DNA of 32,552 bases, from contig JAOZPE010000005.1 of assembly GCA_029932915.1 (NCBI GenBank), positions 73,815-106,366 of the forward strand. The letters are read 5' to 3'. The notes beneath the pieces are model-generated. The model had not been told where the DNA came from, made no database searches, and saw nothing but the letters and a program-made list of their open reading frames with translations. Position 1 is the stretch's first letter. Every line of letters starts with the position of its first letter. Origin of the DNA: Candidatus Krumholzibacteriia bacterium. Lineage in GTDB: Bacteria; Krumholzibacteriota; Krumholzibacteriia; JAJRXK01. The translations under genes and the position numbers were made by a program. This document shows, in pieces, positions 6,314-22,871 of this stretch.

Positions 6314-7153
6314 ATGAATGCCGAACAGAATCTCAAGAGGTCCCATGTGGGAGTCGAACTCGTTCGGCTTCTGGCGGCCGAAGGAAACCGGATCTTCTCG
6401 ACCGATCGTGCCCGGGAGTTGGCGCCCCAGGTCGGTCTCAAGGGCGACTATCTCTGGGAAGCCCTTCACCATCTCCGCAGGACCGGCTGGATCATTTCCC
6501 TTCGCCGGGGTCTGTACGCTCTCTCGCCCACGGTCCCCGGCGTCGCGCCGGTCCACGAGTTCGAGATCGCCATGGCCCTGATCGACCCGGCTGCCATCTC
6601 CCATTGGTCAGCCCTGCACTTTCACGGCCTGACGGAACAGCTTCCTCGGCAGGTCTTCGTTCTGACGACCAGCGGTACTTCGGTTCCTCGCAGGCGGGGT
6701 ACCAAGACACAGCGATCCCACAGCGGTTACCGGGTGGGGGACACGTCCTATCGCTTCATCCAGGTGAAACCGCAGCGCTATTTCGGGCTGGAGAAGGTAT
6801 GGATTGGCGAAGCCCGTGTGACGGTCACCGATCCCGAGAGAACCTTGCTCGATGCCCTGGCCATGCCCCAATACTGCGGCGATTTCGCGGAGGTTCTTCA
6901 CGCCTTCAATTTGAGGAGATCCTCCCTCGATCTCGAGCGGATCATCCGATACGCACTCAAACTCGACGCATCCACCGTCAAGCGTCTCGGCTGGGTGCTT
7001 GAGCATCAAGGAGTGCCGTCCTCACGCCTCGAAGACCTCGCCCAGGTTCCGATCAAGGGCTATCGGAAGCTCGATCCAACGGGTCCGGCCAAGGGTCCTT
7101 GTCATCGGAGGTGGATGATCCAGGAGAATCTCCCCGGCAGGATATCGTCATGA
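6314..7153 (+). CDS. abiEi: AbiEi-type antitoxin (type IV TA), transcriptional regulator
   Basis: A 279-residue protein of the AbiEi antitoxin family. The N-terminal ~75 residues form a winged-helix (STDRARELAPQVGLKGDYLWEALHHLRRTGWI then SLRRGLYALSP, the typical 'recognition helix plus G-x-Y wing'). The rest is the AbiEi C-terminal domain with ISHWSALHFHGLTEQLP and VTVTDPERTLLDALAMPQYCGDFAEV, both typical of the family. In characterised AbiE systems the antitoxin blocks the toxin without contacting it and represses its own promoter. The ATG 6314 has no clear purine-rich Shine-Dalgarno site. The stop TGA overlaps the toxin ATG (ATGA, 7150-7153). Codons are visibly less GC-rich than in neighbouring operons. 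Confidence 0.85.
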   Translation: MNAEQNLKRSHVGVELVRLLAAEGNRIFSTDRARELAPQVGLKGDYLWEALHHLRRTGWIISLRRGLYALSPTVPGVAPVHEFEIAMALIDPAAISHWSALHFHGLTEQLPRQVFVLTTSGTSVPRRRGTKTQRSHSGYRVGDTSYRFIQVKPQRYFGLEKVWIGEARVTVTDPERTLLDALAMPQYCGDFAEVLHAFNLRRSSLDLERIIRYALKLDASTVKRLGWVLEHQGVPSSRLEDLAQVPIKGYRKLDPTGPAKGPCHRRWMIQENLPGRISS

Positions 7154-8025
7154 GGCCTCTCCGTACCCGGCTTCTGGAGGCTCGCAAGCGGCTTGGCCTG
7201 CCGTGGGAAGTGCTCGAACAGGATTACCTCCTCTCATGGATCCTGGCCGCTTTCGGTGAAAGTGGTGCCTTGCGGGAAACGCTGGTCTTCAAAGGCGGGA
7301 CCGCGCTCAAGAAGTGCTACTTCGGCGAATACCGATTCTCGGAGGATCTGGATTTCTCCGCCGTGGGCGATGTTCCAACGGGTGAGGCGATGGAGGAGGC
7401 GGTGCGTGAGGCGTGCACTGCGGCCATGCGAATGCTCGACGACTATGCCCCTGTGGAGATCGGCTGGGAACGGTACACCGAGCGGCATCCGCATCCTGGC
7501 GGGCAGGAGGCGTTCACGATCAGGGCTCGCTTCCCCTGGCAACGGGGGCCTCAGACCCGAGTCATGGTGGAGACGGCGGTCGACGAGAAGGTTCTCAGGC
7601 CTCCACGCTTTCGGCGGATTCTGCACGAGTACGGTGAACCATTCGAGGTACAAGTGCAGGTGTACCCACTGGAGGAAATCATCGCGGAGAAGCTGCGAGC
7701 CATCCTCCAGCACATCGAGAAACTCCATTCGCGTGGATGGAGCCGTTCACGAGCTCGTGACTACTATGATATCTGGCGCGTGCTCGGAAGCTACCGGGAA
7801 CAGATGGATCTCTTGGATTTTCCGTCGTTGTTGCGGGAGAAGTGCGCGCTACGAAAGGTCGTTTTCGACAGTCCAGATGATTTCTTCGAGGAATCGATGC
7901 TCGCCTATGTGGAGAAGACCTGGGAACACTGGCTGGGATCCTTGGTTCCGGATCTGCCTTCCTTCGAGATCGTGATCGGTGAACTGCGTCCTCAGATCGA
8001 GTCACTTATTCTCGCCGGGGAGTAG
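7150..8025 (+). CDS. abiEii: AbiEii-type nucleotidyltransferase toxin
   Basis: A 291-residue AbiEii/AbiGii-family toxin with a DNA polymerase beta-type nucleotidyltransferase fold. Motif I is FKGGTAL (residues 47-53), motif II is SEDLDFS with metal-binding D66 and D68, and the family's later motifs appear as IIAEKLRAIL and RARDYYDIW (D204). Related toxins transfer nucleotides, for example to tRNA 3' ends, and give abortive phage infection. The ATG at 7150 overlaps the antitoxin stop as ATGA. A TTG at 7099 would add 17 residues without family similarity. All key residues are present, so the toxin looks intact. The ~130 bp after the stop show no obvious terminator. Confidence 0.87.
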   Translation: MRPLRTRLLEARKRLGLPWEVLEQDYLLSWILAAFGESGALRETLVFKGGTALKKCYFGEYRFSEDLDFSAVGDVPTGEAMEEAVREACTAAMRMLDDYAPVEIGWERYTERHPHPGGQEAFTIRARFPWQRGPQTRVMVETAVDEKVLRPPRFRRILHEYGEPFEVQVQVYPLEEIIAEKLRAILQHIEKLHSRGWSRSRARDYYDIWRVLGSYREQMDLLDFPSLLREKCALRKVVFDSPDDFFEESMLAYVEKTWEHWLGSLVPDLPSFEIVIGELRPQIESLILAGE

Positions 8026-11861: not shown

Positions 11862-14800
11862 ATGAGTTACTGGTCCCTACTCGAGGAATCCCGCCGGCGC
11901 CTGACCGCGGGCGACTTTCTCGAGGCCGAACGCCTGTACCACCAAGCCCGCCTCGAACACGGCAAGTCGCGTCTGAAGGCGCCCCTCATGGAGAAGGGCG
12001 TCGAGCCGTTGATGCGCGGCATGCGCAAGCTGCTGCGCAAGCCGGCCGGAGAGGAGGGACCGGCCTTCCCTCGGGCGGCCGATCGCCTGCTCAAGGATCT
12101 CGAGGACGTCGCCGCCCTCCACGAGAACGACGCGCGCCGGCGGGCGGCCTTGCCGCCCGAGGAGATCGATCTGGACGCCACGACGCGTCTGGGCATGGCC
12201 CTTCGTCTCCAGCAGGGTTCGCGTCTGTTCCATCTCGATGCGGTCGAACACTGGCGGGTGGTGCGGGCCTATCTGCAGGGCTGTGTGCGCCACGGGGTCC
12301 AGGTGAAGGCCGAGGAACTCGATCCCGATCTGCACCTGCCCGAAGGGGAGACGGTGTGGCTGTGCCGTTTCCTCGGCGAACATCCCTCCGCGATCGACCG
12401 GAGCCTGGCTCCGGCCGCCCAGTGGCTTCTCGATCGGCTCTCCTCGCTGGCCGCGGTGGAAGGGGGCGAGTGGCAGGGTGAGGCCCTGGCCTTGCGCTGC
12501 CGCCTGTACCTGCGCCTGCCCGGCGGAGCACCGATGGCGCTGCGGGAGGGGGTCTTCGCCCTGCAGGCGGTCTATCCTCCTCACGAGGTGGCTTCGCTGT
12601 TGCGCCTGGTGGCCGGTCTGGCGAGCAACGAGCAGCGCCTGGCCACTCCGGCCGCCGACCTGCACACCCTGGACGAACTTGCTCCCCTCGCCCGGCGTTT
12701 CGGCCTTCGATGGCCTCCGGCCGGACTCGTCGAGTTGCTCGACGCCCGCCGCCCTTCTTCCGGATCGCAACTGGCCGCCCTGAGCTGGGAAGGCGATGCC
12801 GGCGAGAGGCTCGTGATGGTCCGCCTGGTGGAGGGACGCCCGTGCGACGTGCTGGCCCTGCGGGCGGTCGGCGAAGCCTTCGCCGGCGACGATCCCTTCT
12901 CGATGCCCATGACCGAGGCGCGCGCCATGCTCGAGCATTGGCTGCCTGCGGACACCCCCATCCTGTGCGGGCCCTCGCCTCCGGCTTGGTTGCGTTCGCT
13001 GCTGGGCGGGCGGGCGGTCCTGGCGGTGGAGCCTTTGAGCACCGCGCTTCCCCTCTCGGCCACGACCGCGGAGTTGCCGACCCCGACGGCGCCGCACCCG
13101 CTCTTCGAGCCGGAGGGAGACGCCGTCGCTGCGCCCTGGATCTCCCTGGTCGAGCAGGCAAGGGGTCTGGCTCCGCGGCTGGCCTCCCTGCGCGCTCAAC
13201 CCGCGGTGTCCTCGGCCTGGGGACTGCGCAACCTGCAGATCCTGGGCTCGGTCGGCCTGGAGATCCCGCGTTCGCTGGCGGTGGGTCTGCAGGCCCTGGG
13301 TCTGGTGGACGAGGGTGCGGTGAGCGCGGTGGAGGAAGTCGAGGGCGTGGTTCCCCTGAACTGGCCCGCCCTGGCCGATCGCGATTGGCCCGGACATCAA
13401 CAGCCCTTCATTCCCATCGATTCGTTCGAGGGTGACGTGCTCATCACCGGACGGCCCACCCCGGCCGAACTGGCCGGCTGTTCCCTGGCCGCCATGCCCT
13501 GTGATGTCTACCTGCGGGATGAGGAGGCGGCGCGGAACCTGGCCACCGGACTGGTGGGTCACGTGGCGGCGACCGAGGTGACGGTGGCTCCCCGGCACCT
13601 GGTGTGCCCCGAGGCGGTCTTCACCCTGCTGGACGACTGGATCGAGGAGAGCGTGGCCGATGAGGAGCGCTCGCTGGACGTGCTGTGGCTCTACCGTTTG
13701 CTGGCCAGCACTCCCGACGGTGATCTCCAGCGCTGGCTCGATGAGGGGGATCGCCCCGCGGCCCGCAAGGAACTCGCCGCCACCCTGGCCTCGGCTCCCG
13801 AGGCGGGCTCGTGTGGGGACTCGTGTCGACTGCATCGCGGCCCGGGTTGCTGGGACGAGCAGTTGCGGTCACGGCGCCGTGCGAGCCGGGTGTGGGTGGA
13901 ATGGGGCGACCATCTGGAACGACCCGGGCTGGAGGGCGCAGGTCCGCGCACCCTCGTCTGCGACGATCTGGTCGAACTGATCGCCGGTGTCGACGACGAC
14001 CGGGCCCTGGCGCGGATGGATGGACTGCTGGACCGGGCGGCCGCGGCGACGGCACTGGTGGCCTGGGTGAATGCGGCGCTCTTCTCCGAAGTGCTCCTGC
14101 GCGAGTGGAGCGAGCGGCTGCCCGAGGGTCGCGTGTGTTCGTCCCTGTCGGCGCAGGACCTCGCGCTTCCGGCCCTGCATCTGGCGCCGGCGGGTTACGC
14201 GCCGGGCTGCCGGCTGCTGGAGGAGGAATCGCGGGCCCTGATCCAGGCGCGGGCCCAGGCTTGGATCCGCCGCGAGCACCCGGCGCGGGCCTGGGTCGCT
14301 CCCGGTGCGGCGCAGGGCGTGTGGAAGGATCTGGTGGGACCTCATCCTCTCACCGGCGTGGGTGAAGGCGCGCACCGGGTGGTCGTGGCCGCGTTGCTGG
14401 GACGGCCTGGTCCCCTCGATCGGGTCCTGGCTCTGTTGCGTTTGGCCGCGGCGGCCAGTCACGCCACCGACGAGGTGGCCTGTGTCGATCCCCGTCTGGC
14501 CGAACTCTTCGGGGGAGCGTGGGCGGTGGCGCCGAGCGCATCCATTCTCACCGATCCGTCACCGGCGACCACCGGGGCGGAGATGCTCGATCGCCTGACC
14601 CAACGGGCTGCTCCCCAGTGGCGCCGTCCCTTCGCGCTGCCGCGTCTGGAGGAGGTGGCTCGGCGCCTGGGAGCGGGTCGGGCGCCGGGGCCCGATCGCA
14701 TCCGTGAACTCTCCGAGGCCCTCGAAGCCATCGAGCGTCACGGCCGCCGGGTGCTGGGCTCGATGTTGCGCGAGGATCGCCTGATCGTGGCCTGGACCCT

Positions 14801-17800
14801 CGCTCTGTTGGCCGAGGAGAGCCGTGACGGTGGACCGCTCGATGCGCGCTTCGTGGTCTGGGTGGGCGAGCCCGAGGCGGACCTGGTGGAAGGCGCGCCC
14901 TTCGGGGTGAAGGTCGCGGGCCGGGACGAGGGAGCCCAGGGCGCGGAACTGGCGGCGGCCCTGGAGGCGGGAGCGATCCGTCTGCTCGTCGTGCCGCCTT
15001 CGCTCCTGCGGCTGCGCGATTGGCGGCGATGGCTCGAGGGTCTGCGCCATTGCGCCTTCATCCTTCCCGAGGCCGACCGTCTCTTCCCCGAGCATCCAGC
15101 CTATCAAGGGCAATGGGCGCGGGCCATGGAGGAGACCCTGATCGGCAAGGACGAGGCGGTCACCGTCCTGGCGTGCTTCGACCAGGCCGAACTCTCGGCC
15201 CAAGGGGCGTTGACGCGCCTGGCGGAGAAGCTGGGCGCCACCGCCGGCGTGGTGGGCAAGCAGGCCGAGCTGGAAGGATGGCGCTGGCAGCGCATCCGTC
15301 TGGAGGATCCGGCGTGGTATTGCGCGCGTTGTCACAAGGAACAGACCCTTGTGCATCCCTGGGCGCTGTGTGCCCGCTGTGGTCAGGCGCTCCTGCAGGC
15401 GCCCGCGGAGTGGGCCGCGGCCGAACAGGCACTGCGGGCGAGCCGCGTGCGCTGGTTGTCGCGTCAGAGTCTCGAACGCGAGTGGCTGGCGGTGGCCGAG
15501 AACACCGCCGAGCGCGATGCACTCCTCTACGACCTGGGCATCGTCTCCCAGGCGGAGAAGGCCCCGTTGCTGGGGGATTCGTGGGCCCTGCACATCGTGG
15601 CGCTGGAGGAACTCTGGGACGGAGAGCCGCCTTCCGGCGAACTCGTCTTCACCTTCCTGCCCCGTGACCCGCGCCGTCTGCGGGCGGCGTTGGCTCGCCT
15701 GCGTTCACGGGGCCGCCTGCACGGTCTGCTGCACTTCATGGACCACCCTCTTGCGTGGACCCGCCCTCCCTCCCGGCAGGCCGAAGAACACGAGCCCAAG
15801 TTGCCTCCGCTGGAGAGCCTGCGCTGGAAGGCGAGCCGGGCCGAGGTGGAGTTCCGCTGCCAGCAGGCCCTGGGACGGGTGCAACGGGGCCTGCGTGCGC
15901 GCGGATCCTCCGACACCCGGCGCCGCCGTGGTCTCGGTCCGGTGGCCGATCCCCGGCAGGATCCCCAGGTGCGGGCGCTGGCCCGCGCCGTGGCGCTGTG
16001 GCGGGAGACCGCCCGCGAGGGATTCCCCGAGGAACAGGTCCAGCAGTGGGGACTGAAGAAGTGCGTGCGCATCTTCGACCGCCTCGCCCAGGCGGGACTC
16101 GATTTCGAGGGGAAGGGAGGAAGTCTGCAGCAAGGTCTTCCCGAACTCTTCTCCCAGGACTTCGAGAGGAAGGCCACGGAGGACGTCCTGCGCTGGCTGG
16201 TGGCCGAGGATCTGATGGAGAGTACCCGGCCCGGGGAGGAGGAAGAGCCCGAGGCCGTGCCGGCCCTGCCCGAGAGCGAGATCCTGCGGTGGCATGCGGC
16301 TGCACGCTCGGCGCCCAGCGGCGTCGCCACCGAACTGGCGCCGTGGCCGGCCCTTTCCTCCTCCGATGCCGCGCGCAAGGGCTCGGAGATCGAACTGCCG
16401 CCGGTCGACGGGAACTGGGTGCTGGGGGTGGCCGGCAGTGGACGCAGCTCGCGTCTGGAGGAGCTGGCGGTGGGCGACCCGGCGGATCCTCCTGCCCTGG
16501 TGATCGTCGCCGGCTCGATGGGGGTCCTGCGCTGGGAGGGAGCGGCGCGCAGTGGGACGGGCCTGGTCTGCGTCACCCTGGACGAACTGATCGTCGACTT
16601 CCTACACGATCACTACGAACTGGGTGGTTTCACGCGGCCACCGAGGATCCTGTCACTGACGGCCTCACCCGAGGGAGAAGATGTCCTGCGGCGCCTGCTG
16701 AAGGACGTCAGCCGGCGTTACGCGGTGGCGACCGGTGCCAGCCCTCCCGTCGATCTCATGGAGATGCGCAGGGTGCTCGAGGGGGGAGGTGGGGTGTCCA
16801 TGGCCGCGACGGCCGGAAGCGATGTGGATGCAGCCCTTCTGCAGCGCTGTGCCACCGAGGCGCGCCGGGCGGACAACTGGGTCCTGCCCGGCGAGCTGGG
16901 TTCGATGTGCCGCCGTTGGCTCATCGAGTACCCCTACGTGGGTGAGGCCTGGCGTGACCGCTACCCCCGGGTGCTGGTGGACGATGTCGACGCGATGCCC
17001 GCCCAGAAACGGGAGTTCCTGGATCGCCTCTTTCCCGAGAGCTACCGCACGAGCAGTGCCGAGCCGGGACTCTTGCCGCGCGGCCATCCCCGGCGGGGAG
17101 ATGGAGGGTCGAGGCAGAGCCGGCGCCTGCCCCGCGAACTGGCCCGGGCGGGAGAATATCTCCTGCGCGAGGAGATCCTCGGACGGGGTTCGATCAAGGC
17201 ACGCAGCCGGGAGAAGGGCAGGCTCCTGCGCCACCAGGTGTTGAGTCTGCAGGCCTGTGTGGCGCAGATCGAGAGCGCCTTGAGCGGCCAGCAGTGGCAA
17301 CGTCAGAGGGTGGGCGTCATCCTCAGCTACGGCGGTGATCTGCCCCGCCTGGCCCACCACCTGCGCGAGGCGGAGATCCAGGTGTGGCCGGCACGTCAGG
17401 TCCTGCCCGCGTGTGTGCCGGGACCGCGCGACTTCCTCCTGGCCCTGGCCCTGGCCGGCAAGGGAGCGCAGCTCGATGCCTCCGTGGCGGGTTCGTTGGC
17501 CCTGGCCCTGCTGCAGTTGGCCGGCATCGATCCCGGTCACCACGAGCGCGAGGATCTGGGGCAGTGGATCCAGAAGCTCCTCGAAGAAGACGAATCGTTG
17601 CGGCCACAGGATCCGGCCGAGGCCTTCCTCGAACCGCTCGGGCGTCTGTCGAAGCAGATGGAGCGCGTGGAGAGCCTGGTGGACGCGGCACAGGCGATCG
17701 AGAACACCCATCTGCTGCCACGGGTCGAGCACGACGAGGTGATGGCGGCCCGCCTCGCCCACTACGTGCACGAGAGAATGGATGAGCACTGGCGGGGTGT

Positions 17801-18023
17801 TCTCGTGGGATTGGATCCGTCGGCCCTGGTCGATCCGCTGGCCCCGGGCCCGCGCGTGTGGCTGCTCGAGGTGGAGGAGCTGGACGCGGTCGAGCTCGAT
17901 CGGGCCTTCTATCTTTGCACGGGACACGAGCCGGCCGAAGTGCACTACCGTGTCCTCGGCCGGGTCCGCGAGAGTCTGACCATCCTCTACTCCGAACGCG
18001 ATCCGCTCTCCCCGCGCGGCTGA
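11862..18023 (+). CDS. Giant 2053-aa protein with serial degenerate helicase-like modules (DinG-, RecQ-, UvrD-like)
   Basis: Not assignable to a named family by eye. Reading motifs in order: residues 1-280, helical with a TPR-like start; ~290-400, possibly DnaQ-exonuclease-like (LLDARR at 294 where LDxET is expected); ~520-760, DinG/XPD-like, with Walker A replaced by GRPTPAE (530-536), Fe-S-type cysteines C582, C651, C655 and C663, and the DEAH position reading DDLV (701-704); ~985-1120, RecQ-like, with RLLVVPPSLLRLRDW and PEADRLF (1069-1075) in place of the DEAH motif; a zinc ribbon with C1154, C1157, C1170 and C1173; ~1515-2050, UvrD-like, with GVAGSGRSS (1522-1530, Arg for Lys), VDDVDA (D1707-D1708) and a last-motif region LLEVEELDAVELD lacking the TxHxxKG residues. 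Probably an ATPase-inactive DNA-repair-type scaffold; this is inference. It starts 56 nt after leuS and its 3' end overlaps the DUF2062 gene by 37 nt. Confidence 0.7.
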   Translation: MSYWSLLEESRRRLTAGDFLEAERLYHQARLEHGKSRLKAPLMEKGVEPLMRGMRKLLRKPAGEEGPAFPRAADRLLKDLEDVAALHENDARRRAALPPEEIDLDATTRLGMALRLQQGSRLFHLDAVEHWRVVRAYLQGCVRHGVQVKAEELDPDLHLPEGETVWLCRFLGEHPSAIDRSLAPAAQWLLDRLSSLAAVEGGEWQGEALALRCRLYLRLPGGAPMALREGVFALQAVYPPHEVASLLRLVAGLASNEQRLATPAADLHTLDELAPLARRFGLRWPPAGLVELLDARRPSSGSQLAALSWEGDAGERLVMVRLVEGRPCDVLALRAVGEAFAGDDPFSMPMTEARAMLEHWLPADTPILCGPSPPAWLRSLLGGRAVLAVEPLSTALPLSATTAELPTPTAPHPLFEPEGDAVAAPWISLVEQARGLAPRLASLRAQPAVSSAWGLRNLQILGSVGLEIPRSLAVGLQALGLVDEGAVSAVEEVEGVVPLNWPALADRDWPGHQQPFIPIDSFEGDVLITGRPTPAELAGCSLAAMPCDVYLRDEEAARNLATGLVGHVAATEVTVAPRHLVCPEAVFTLLDDWIEESVADEERSLDVLWLYRLLASTPDGDLQRWLDEGDRPAARKELAATLASAPEAGSCGDSCRLHRGPGCWDEQLRSRRRASRVWVEWGDHLERPGLEGAGPRTLVCDDLVELIAGVDDDRALARMDGLLDRAAAATALVAWVNAALFSEVLLREWSERLPEGRVCSSLSAQDLALPALHLAPAGYAPGCRLLEEESRALIQARAQAWIRREHPARAWVAPGAAQGVWKDLVGPHPLTGVGEGAHRVVVAALLGRPGPLDRVLALLRLAAAASHATDEVACVDPRLAELFGGAWAVAPSASILTDPSPATTGAEMLDRLTQRAAPQWRRPFALPRLEEVARRLGAGRAPGPDRIRELSEALEAIERHGRRVLGSMLREDRLIVAWTLALLAEESRDGGPLDARFVVWVGEPEADLVEGAPFGVKVAGRDEGAQGAELAAALEAGAIRLLVVPPSLLRLRDWRRWLEGLRHCAFILPEADRLFPEHPAYQGQWARAMEETLIGKDEAVTVLACFDQAELSAQGALTRLAEKLGATAGVVGKQAELEGWRWQRIRLEDPAWYCARCHKEQTLVHPWALCARCGQALLQAPAEWAAAEQALRASRVRWLSRQSLEREWLAVAENTAERDALLYDLGIVSQAEKAPLLGDSWALHIVALEELWDGEPPSGELVFTFLPRDPRRLRAALARLRSRGRLHGLLHFMDHPLAWTRPPSRQAEEHEPKLPPLESLRWKASRAEVEFRCQQALGRVQRGLRARGSSDTRRRRGLGPVADPRQDPQVRALARAVALWRETAREGFPEEQVQQWGLKKCVRIFDRLAQAGLDFEGKGGSLQQGLPELFSQDFERKATEDVLRWLVAEDLMESTRPGEEEEPEAVPALPESEILRWHAAARSAPSGVATELAPWPALSSSDAARKGSEIELPPVDGNWVLGVAGSGRSSRLEELAVGDPADPPALVIVAGSMGVLRWEGAARSGTGLVCVTLDELIVDFLHDHYELGGFTRPPRILSLTASPEGEDVLRRLLKDVSRRYAVATGASPPVDLMEMRRVLEGGGGVSMAATAGSDVDAALLQRCATEARRADNWVLPGELGSMCRRWLIEYPYVGEAWRDRYPRVLVDDVDAMPAQKREFLDRLFPESYRTSSAEPGLLPRGHPRRGDGGSRQSRRLPRELARAGEYLLREEILGRGSIKARSREKGRLLRHQVLSLQACVAQIESALSGQQWQRQRVGVILSYGGDLPRLAHHLREAEIQVWPARQVLPACVPGPRDFLLALALAGKGAQLDASVAGSLALALLQLAGIDPGHHEREDLGQWIQKLLEEDESLRPQDPAEAFLEPLGRLSKQMERVESLVDAAQAIENTHLLPRVEHDEVMAARLAHYVHERMDEHWRGVLVGLDPSALVDPLAPGPRVWLLEVEELDAVELDRAFYLCTGHEPAEVHYRVLGRVRESLTILYSERDPLSPRG

Positions 18024-21776: not shown

Positions 21777-21815
21777 GGCCCACTCTGCGCGGCGCGTGGA
21801 GTGGGCCTTTTCATT
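21777..21815 (+). terminator. Rho-independent terminator after the lipoprotein gene
   Basis: A perfect 9-bp stem, GGCCCACTC (21777-21785) with GAGTGGGCC (21799-21807), a 13-nt loop and a TTTTCATTT tail. The ribosome site of the next gene starts only 4 nt beyond the T-rich tail. Confidence 0.85.
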
Positions 21816-21833
21816 TCCGGGGGGAGATGCACG

Positions 21834-22871
21834 GTGAGAATCGGAATCGTCGGAGAGATCCAGAGCGGCAAGTCGTCCCTGCTGGCCCTGCTCATGGCCG
21901 GTGAGGGAGCCCGGCGCGGCAAGCACGATTGGGAGACGGTCATCCCCATTCCCGACGAGCGGCTCCAGTGGCTCGCTCGCCTGCATCAGCCCAAGAAGGT
22001 CACTCCGGCCACCCTGGAGTTCGTCGACCTGTCCGGCGATCCCCAGCACGCCAGCAGCAGCCTCGATCAGCTCCTGGACCTTCCCGATCTGAGAACCTGC
22101 GACGGCATCGCCGTGGTCCTCGATTGCTTCACCCGGCCGGCCGATGCTGCCGCGCTGGAGAGCTTCGAGTTGGCCACCGCGGTGGCCGACCTCGACCGGG
22201 TCGAGCGCCGGCTCGAACGCCTTCAGGCGGATCGCAAGCGGGGGAACAAGGACGCCGAGAAGGAGATGGCGCTCATGGAGCGCCTGAAGGCCCATCTGGA
22301 GAGTGAGAAGCCCCTGCGGGTGCTGGAGATGAACGACACCGACCGCGCCGCCCTGCGGGGCTACCAGTTCCTCTCGCTCAAACCGGTCCTGGTGGTGGCC
22401 AACCGCCGGGAAGAAGAGGTGGCCGAGGCCGACCCGCCGGTGCTGGTGGAGGCGGCCGCGGCGGCCGGTCACGAGCTGTGCTCGCTCTCGCTGCCGCTGG
22501 AAGGGGAGCTGGCCGGCCTGGATCCGGCCGAACGGGAGGAGTTTCTGAAGGAACTGGGGATCGCCGAGCCGGCGGTCAGCCGCTTCCTGCGCTCGGCCTA
22601 TCGCAGTCTCGGGCTCATCTCCTTCCTCACCGCGGGCAAGGACGAGTGCCGGGCCTGGACGGTCCGCAAGGGGGCGACCGCGCCGGAGGCGGCGGGAAAG
22701 ATCCACAGCGATCTGCAACGCGGTTTCATCCGGGCCGAGGTGGTGGCCTTCGACGATCTGAAGGCCCACGGGGACGAGAAGGCGGCGAAGGCGGCCGGGG
22801 TGGTGCGGCTCGAAGGCAAGGACTACGTCGTCCAGGACGGCGACGTCATCGAGATCCGTTTCTCTGTTTGA
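21834..22871 (+). CDS. Divergent YchF/OLA1-like P-loop NTPase
   Basis: A 345-residue protein with the overall plan of YchF: P-loop IGIVGEIQSGKSSL (G1), PDERLQWLARLHQPKKVTPATLEFVDLSGD (YchF-type lead into the G3 DxxG), a helical coiled-coil insert (DLDRVERRLERLQADRKR), LKPVLVVANRREEE with an N-x-x-E motif where canonical GTPases have NKxD (YchF uses NxxE and prefers ATP), and a C-terminal TGS-like domain ISFLTAGKDECRAWTVRKGATAPEAAGKIHSDLQRGFIRAEV ending in DYVVQDGDVIEIRFSV. The P-loop lacks the usual GLPNVGKST sequence and the DxxG region lacks the VKGAS pattern, so it is a paralogue rather than standard YchF. GTG 21834 follows GGGGGGAG with a 7-nt spacer. Confidence 0.8.
   Translation: MRIGIVGEIQSGKSSLLALLMAGEGARRGKHDWETVIPIPDERLQWLARLHQPKKVTPATLEFVDLSGDPQHASSSLDQLLDLPDLRTCDGIAVVLDCFTRPADAAALESFELATAVADLDRVERRLERLQADRKRGNKDAEKEMALMERLKAHLESEKPLRVLEMNDTDRAALRGYQFLSLKPVLVVANRREEEVAEADPPVLVEAAAAAGHELCSLSLPLEGELAGLDPAEREEFLKELGIAEPAVSRFLRSAYRSLGLISFLTAGKDECRAWTVRKGATAPEAAGKIHSDLQRGFIRAEVVAFDDLKAHGDEKAAKAAGVVRLEGKDYVVQDGDVIEIRFSV

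Follow-up and report, generated by a model that had tools for sequence, protein, structure and literature searches.

A 2053-residue chain of degenerate helicase-like modules in Krumholzibacteriota, probably an ATP-independent scaffold

The window, by which we mean the whole stretch of 32,552 nucleotides analysed here, comes from a 2.9-Mb genome of a Candidatus Krumholzibacteriia bacterium. On its forward strand, positions 11862-18023 form a single stop-free frame encoding 2053 amino acids, with the coordinates and length given in an earlier note on this DNA. That note read the protein as a chain of DnaQ-like (with a question mark), DinG-like, RecQ-like and UvrD-like modules with almost all ATPase motifs lost. 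The features of the gene are as follows.

11862..18023, +: whole gene (2053 aa; homologues; purifying selection)
11862..12752, +: N-terminal all-helical, TPR-like region, aa 1-297 (AlphaFold2, pLDDT mostly >90)
12753..13313, +: degenerate DnaQ-like (3'-5' exonuclease fold) region, aa 298-484 (strand/helix order; DnaQ-DinG fold match)
13314..14576, +: DinG-like pseudo-helicase, aa 485-905 (fold match; hhalign P 3.8e-4; 0/60 shuffles)
13449..13469, +: GRPTPAE at the DinG Walker A position, aa 530-536 (model and motif table)
13605..13607, +: Cys582, first Fe-S-type cysteine (aligned with NYLC of DinG)
13812..13850, +: Cys651, Cys655 and Cys663, the other Fe-S-type cysteines (family and DinG alignments)
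13962..13973, +: DDLV at the DinG DEAH position, aa 701-704 (profile alignment)
14679..15731, +: RecQ-like pseudo-helicase, aa 940-1290 (hhalign P 0.003; 0/60 shuffles)
15066..15077, +: PEAD at the RecQ DEAH position, aa 1069-1072 (profile alignment)
15321..15383, +: zinc-ribbon cysteines 1154, 1157, 1170 and 1173 (family conservation; weak zinc-ribbon matches)
15732..16376, +: linker or winged-helix-like middle region, aa 1291-1505 (sister-family profile match)
16377..18020, +: UvrD-like pseudo-helicase, aa 1506-2053 (hhalign P 4.2e-8; 0/60 shuffles; fold of a homologue)
16434..16451, +: GSGRSS, Walker A with Lys replaced by Arg, aa 1525-1530 (motif table)
16980..16994, +: DDVDA replacing DEFQD of motif II, aa 1707-1711 (profile alignment)
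17868..17897, +: EVEELDAVEL replacing motif V (T.H.AKG.E), aa 2003-2012 (profile alignments)
17943..17978, +: HYRVLGRVRESL, motif VI position with the arginine retained, aa 2028-2039 (alignments and motif table)

Elsewhere in the window, an AbiEi/AbiEii toxin-antitoxin pair lies at 6314-8025 (+) between an RNase HII gene and a patatin-like gene, and a YchF-type C-terminal (DUF933/TGS) protein, whose Pfam match is confined to its last third, is encoded at 21801-22868 (+).

The protein belongs to an unannotated family whose members are about 2000 residues long, found in 39 of the 80 genomes and in two Krumholzibacteriota families only. Relatives of the same length were present in all four genomes of the window's own family (f1) and in 35 of the 38 genomes of a sister family (f5). 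Homologues were absent from six other families of the same class, and about 258 genomes from other phyla yielded no true member and one marginal zinc-ribbon match. Sequence identity is 30-34% among the f1 relatives and approximately 18-20% between f1 and f5. In nine close f5 pairs, dN/dS ranged from 0.05 to 0.17, and the protein is therefore maintained rather than being debris; it is kept under purifying selection. Gene neighbours differ between the two families and no conserved neighbour indicates a partner. The f5 copies are flanked by a subtilase and a tryptophanase-like gene. A LeuRS gene upstream was considered as a functional clue and dropped, as it occurs there in the window and in one f1 relative only.

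No helicase was detected when the window protein and the family profiles were searched against Pfam, PADLOC and PDB, or when the neighbours were searched with NCBIfam; the sole hint among PDB sequences was HelD at the P-loop (E 2.1). The assignments below come from predicted structures and from profile-to-profile comparisons.

An AlphaFold2 model of residues 1-955, built from 30 rows, has a mean pLDDT of 84 and a pTM of 0.73. Its first 297 residues are all-helical, a strand-rich domain follows at about 300-395, and then come two more alpha/beta domains. In Foldseek, the top PDB match of this model is S. aureus DinG (9ii8; E 3.9e-6, prob 1.00, 929 columns), and E. coli DinG is also among the matches (prob 0.99). 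S. aureus DinG carries an exonuclease domain ahead of its XPD-type helicase. The window's family shares with it the fold and order of the N-terminal half and four cysteines, whereas the Walker A and DEAH motifs are lost in the window protein. The TM-scores of this half and of the C-terminal half are low because domain placement differs; in both cases the PDB matches of the models are domain-level fold matches, not whole-chain superpositions.

The helical N-terminus is, we infer, TPR-like, and one member has a weak TPR_14 match. For residues 298-484, the predicted strand and helix order and the whole-chain DinG match weakly suggest a DnaQ identity on fold grounds; HH-suite comparison with real DnaQ gave no profile support, and the DEDD residues of the 3'-5' exonuclease are not kept, D-x-E not being conserved in the family alignments. 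The next module takes up a DinG fold in the model and stands directly after this putative exonuclease-type domain. Its combined f1 and f5 profile matches DinG with the P value listed above. GRPTPAE occupies a predicted P-loop-like strand-loop-helix (strand 525-529, loop, helix 534-543), but neither GTGKT of the DinG Walker A nor DEAH occurs in the window protein or in any relative. CGDSC...C of the window protein aligns with the DinG Fe-S cysteines; the four cysteines (582, 651, 655 and 663) are present in 4/4 f1 members and in 0/26 of f5. In the organisms' own DinG proteins (L093-L100), the N-terminal domain of about 200 aa lacks exonuclease motifs.

A RecQ identity of residues 940-1290 is moderately supported by the profiles, the match to RecQ (P 0.003 for f1, and 0.01 for f5 against the RecQ segment of active fusions) being weaker than those to DinG and UvrD. 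In this register, LLVVPPSLL...LPEAD faces LYISPESL...VDEAH of RecQ, and the motif table lacks both PTGGGKS and DEAHC for the window protein. The zinc-ribbon cysteines in this part are invariant in f1 and retained in deep-branching f5 genera. Two of the four f1 genomes (G000, G002) have no RecQ above the family cut-off. The middle region matches the middle of active RecQ-UvrD fusions in f5 (P 0.0045), while the f1 value is not significant (P 0.56).

The C-terminal half was modelled on an f5 member, because a joint alignment of the two families misaligns this half. The model (pLDDT 81, pTM 0.79) adopts a UvrD fold: its first 19 PDB matches are all UvrD, PcrA or Rep, headed by UvrD (E 1.4e-10, 621 columns). 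Against the UvrD of active fusions, the segment gives P 4.2e-8 for f1 and 0.0065 for f5. VDDVDA of the window protein faces VDEFQD of UvrD, VLVDDVDAMPAQ stands opposite VLVDEFQDTNPLQ, and HYRVLGRVRESL stands opposite FYVALTRAERRL of UvrD. The Walker A lysine, DE.QD and T.H.AKG of UvrD are none of them retained in the window protein.

When segments of f1 and f5 were compared in HH-suite with those of real helicase families, the matches between corresponding segments formed a diagonal, and most other cells have P values of 0.1-0.9. Off the diagonal, P falls below 0.05 for three P-loop cross-matches (0.0042, 0.012 and 0.016) and for one helical-region match (0.032). For every diagonal value, all 60 column shuffles and the reversed profile scored worse. 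No member of the family has, in the motif table, a GK[TS] Walker A at even one of the three ATPase sites. The UvrD-like Walker A reads GSGR or similar in most members, and the DinG-like and RecQ-like sites are unrecognisable. The catalytic residues have thus been lost from each ATPase core. The earlier note had named GRPTPAE, DDLV, PEAD and GSGRSS as replacements at these sites, and all four strings are present; the profile alignments bear out DDLV and PEAD as the DEAH sites of DinG and RecQ, and the missing TxHxxKG at the end of UvrD corresponds to EVEELDAVEL. Its module order holds for DinG and UvrD by fold and profile and for RecQ, less strongly, by profile; the DnaQ it had queried has a fold basis and no sequence support.

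The note had also suggested looking in neighbouring phyla for relatives with intact active sites. There are none inside the family. Elsewhere, however, a search of other phyla for giant RecQ frames recovered a 1648-aa DnaQ-RecQ-UvrD protein (L129) with all motifs intact. Active fusions of this kind are widespread, occurring on plasmids of Bacteroides, Aliarcobacter, Rhizobium, cyanobacteria and Deinococcus, and are annotated as 'RecQ family ATP-dependent DNA helicase' with lengths of about 1600-1750 aa (for example, Bacteroides finegoldii [GenBank:WP_022275194.1], Aliarcobacter cibarius [GenBank:WP_151029446.1] and Rhizobium [GenBank:WSH69782.1]). Like the window protein, they hold RecQ-like, middle and UvrD-like parts in one chain with an N-terminal DnaQ-type domain (putative in the window protein) and a cysteine cluster, and they match the RecQ and UvrD segments of the window's family by profile. 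Unlike it, they retain Walker A, DEAH, DEFQD and motif V/VI in intact form, lack a recognised DinG module and N-terminal helical repeats, and occur in many phyla. These fusions combine an active RecQ core with an active UvrD core in a single chain, which the window protein does not.

A second system, in two genomes of another family (f58; L131 and L192), spreads DnaQ, a DinG-like stretch, RecQ and UvrD over two genes that overlap, the four modules being ordered as proposed for the window protein. In contrast to the window protein, it is split between two genes and its DnaQ, RecQ and UvrD motifs are intact (with DEAD, Helicase_C and UvrD Pfam matches). By eye, the stretch between DnaQ and RecQ appears DinG-like and degenerate; its profile P is not significant. 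In both genomes (L131:1727-8589, L192:874-7747) the split falls inside the RecQ domain and the open frames overlap; the pair may encode two separate subunits or be joined by programmed frameshifting. Of the listed DinG matches, none lies in an ORF longer than about 1400 aa, and no four-module chain with every activity intact came to light. A DinG tree was set aside as a source for the history of the gene, with too few sequences to build on. The assembly is not an isolated invention, because the intact DnaQ-RecQ-UvrD fusions and this gene pair exist elsewhere. It appears that the window protein descends from an assembly of the DnaQ / DinG-like / RecQ / UvrD type, with each of the motors lost afterwards.

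Several inactive helicases that act singly are known to have a function, among them RecC, AddB, Deinococcus PriA and Utp25. In RecC and AddB, helicase folds are kept without ATPase function and are used in DNA recognition or partner binding (PMC4824097, PMC1185551). Deinococcus PriA is a pseudohelicase that binds DNA and DnaB and does not hydrolyse ATP (PMC4504706). The window protein is predicted to resemble them in having helicase folds without ATPase function, but each of them has one helicase-like module in a known complex, whereas here three to four families are chained. By analogy with RecC, AddB and Deinococcus PriA, an ATP-independent scaffold seems the most likely role, and we think it probable that the protein, confined to this lineage, descends from a multi-helicase repair protein, has been inactivated completely and acts in this way. 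From N- to C-terminus it would comprise helical repeats and DnaQ-like, DinG-like, RecQ-like and UvrD-like modules, with no catalytic residues in any ATPase core. Judging from the lost motifs, neither ATP hydrolysis nor unwinding is expected. The chain would act as a rigid scaffold, its helicase-shaped surfaces holding DNA and/or partner repair or replication proteins, and the N-terminal helical repeats would serve for docking. The genome encodes its own intact DinG (AGTGIGKT, DEAH) and UvrD-type helicases; therefore, the activity lost here is not a function lost from the cell.

Composition bears on whether such a scaffold would touch DNA at all. The pI is about 5-5.9 in nearly all family members as compared with 5.8-7.3 in active RecQ-UvrD fusions, and the family is poor in Lys and Arg by the same comparison. 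This argues against tight DNA binding, mostly in f5, and DNA binding may have been lost. It is conceivable, if unlikely, that the protein is a repurposed hub that binds no nucleic acid and whose folds serve solely as protein-protein architecture. Besides the low pI and the scarcity of basic residues, such a hub would suit the Trp content, which at about 3% is roughly twice that of the active fusions. In much of f5 the Fe-S cysteines are missing and the zinc ribbon is largely gone, and the helical N-terminus and the C-terminal tail are among the best-conserved parts, as such a hub would have it. However, f1 keeps its Fe-S-type and zinc-ribbon cysteines without exception, which fits continued nucleic-acid contact, and a rather acidic composition is found in the organism's own DinG as well.

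More doubtful is a nucleotide-binding switch, with ATP bound by one of the modules and turned over slowly or not at all; the UvrD-like module and its GSGR would be the likeliest candidate. A Walker A that is still recognisable apart from the replacement of Lys by Arg is common in f5, the motif VI arginine is retained in most members, and f5 keeps EVQ in motif II. On the other hand, the f1 P-loop is variable (GSGR, RTGR, GGEGE), the acidic pair of motif II is altered and motif V is gone. That the resemblance to helicases is superficial, the modules being other P-loop or Rossmann folds, is improbable: the empty Pfam, NCBIfam (neighbours) and PDB sequence and profile searches and the weaker RecQ and DnaQ assignments would suit it, but Foldseek and six independent profile comparisons agree in register and order. 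Finally, a decaying pseudogene or a spurious GC-rich frame, for which long antisense frames over the same DNA might speak, is refuted by uninterrupted frames of about 2000 codons in homologues from 39/80 genomes and by the dN/dS values, and conservation likewise rules out a chance or antisense ORF.

If the scaffold reading is right, as seems rather likely, no earlier case is known of three or four helicases from different families (DnaQ-DinG-RecQ-UvrD) chained together with every motor lost and kept as an ATP-independent scaffold of about 2000 residues throughout two bacterial families. The open-access literature that we searched holds no DnaQ-DinG-RecQ-UvrD protein, and no description of a whole multi-helicase assembly that was made motor-less and then conserved. 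In a sense, evolution would have retained the shape of a repair machine and discarded its motors, and the family would serve as a natural experiment on the roles of helicase folds beyond unwinding. It also names a target in an uncultured phylum that all annotation libraries miss, and draws attention to the active DnaQ-RecQ-UvrD fusions, which are widespread and seem not to have been studied.

In other Krumholzibacteriota, very long frames with UvrD or RecQ were considered as intact versions of the gene and rejected. First, the G008 frame is AddA with a read-through frame. Second, that of G035 covers a RecB/AddA-like region. Third, the G106 frame is a topoisomerase-RecQ frame. L128:1256-6424 holds a 1723-aa open frame that joins a topoisomerase I-like part and a RecQ helicase by a repetitive linker.
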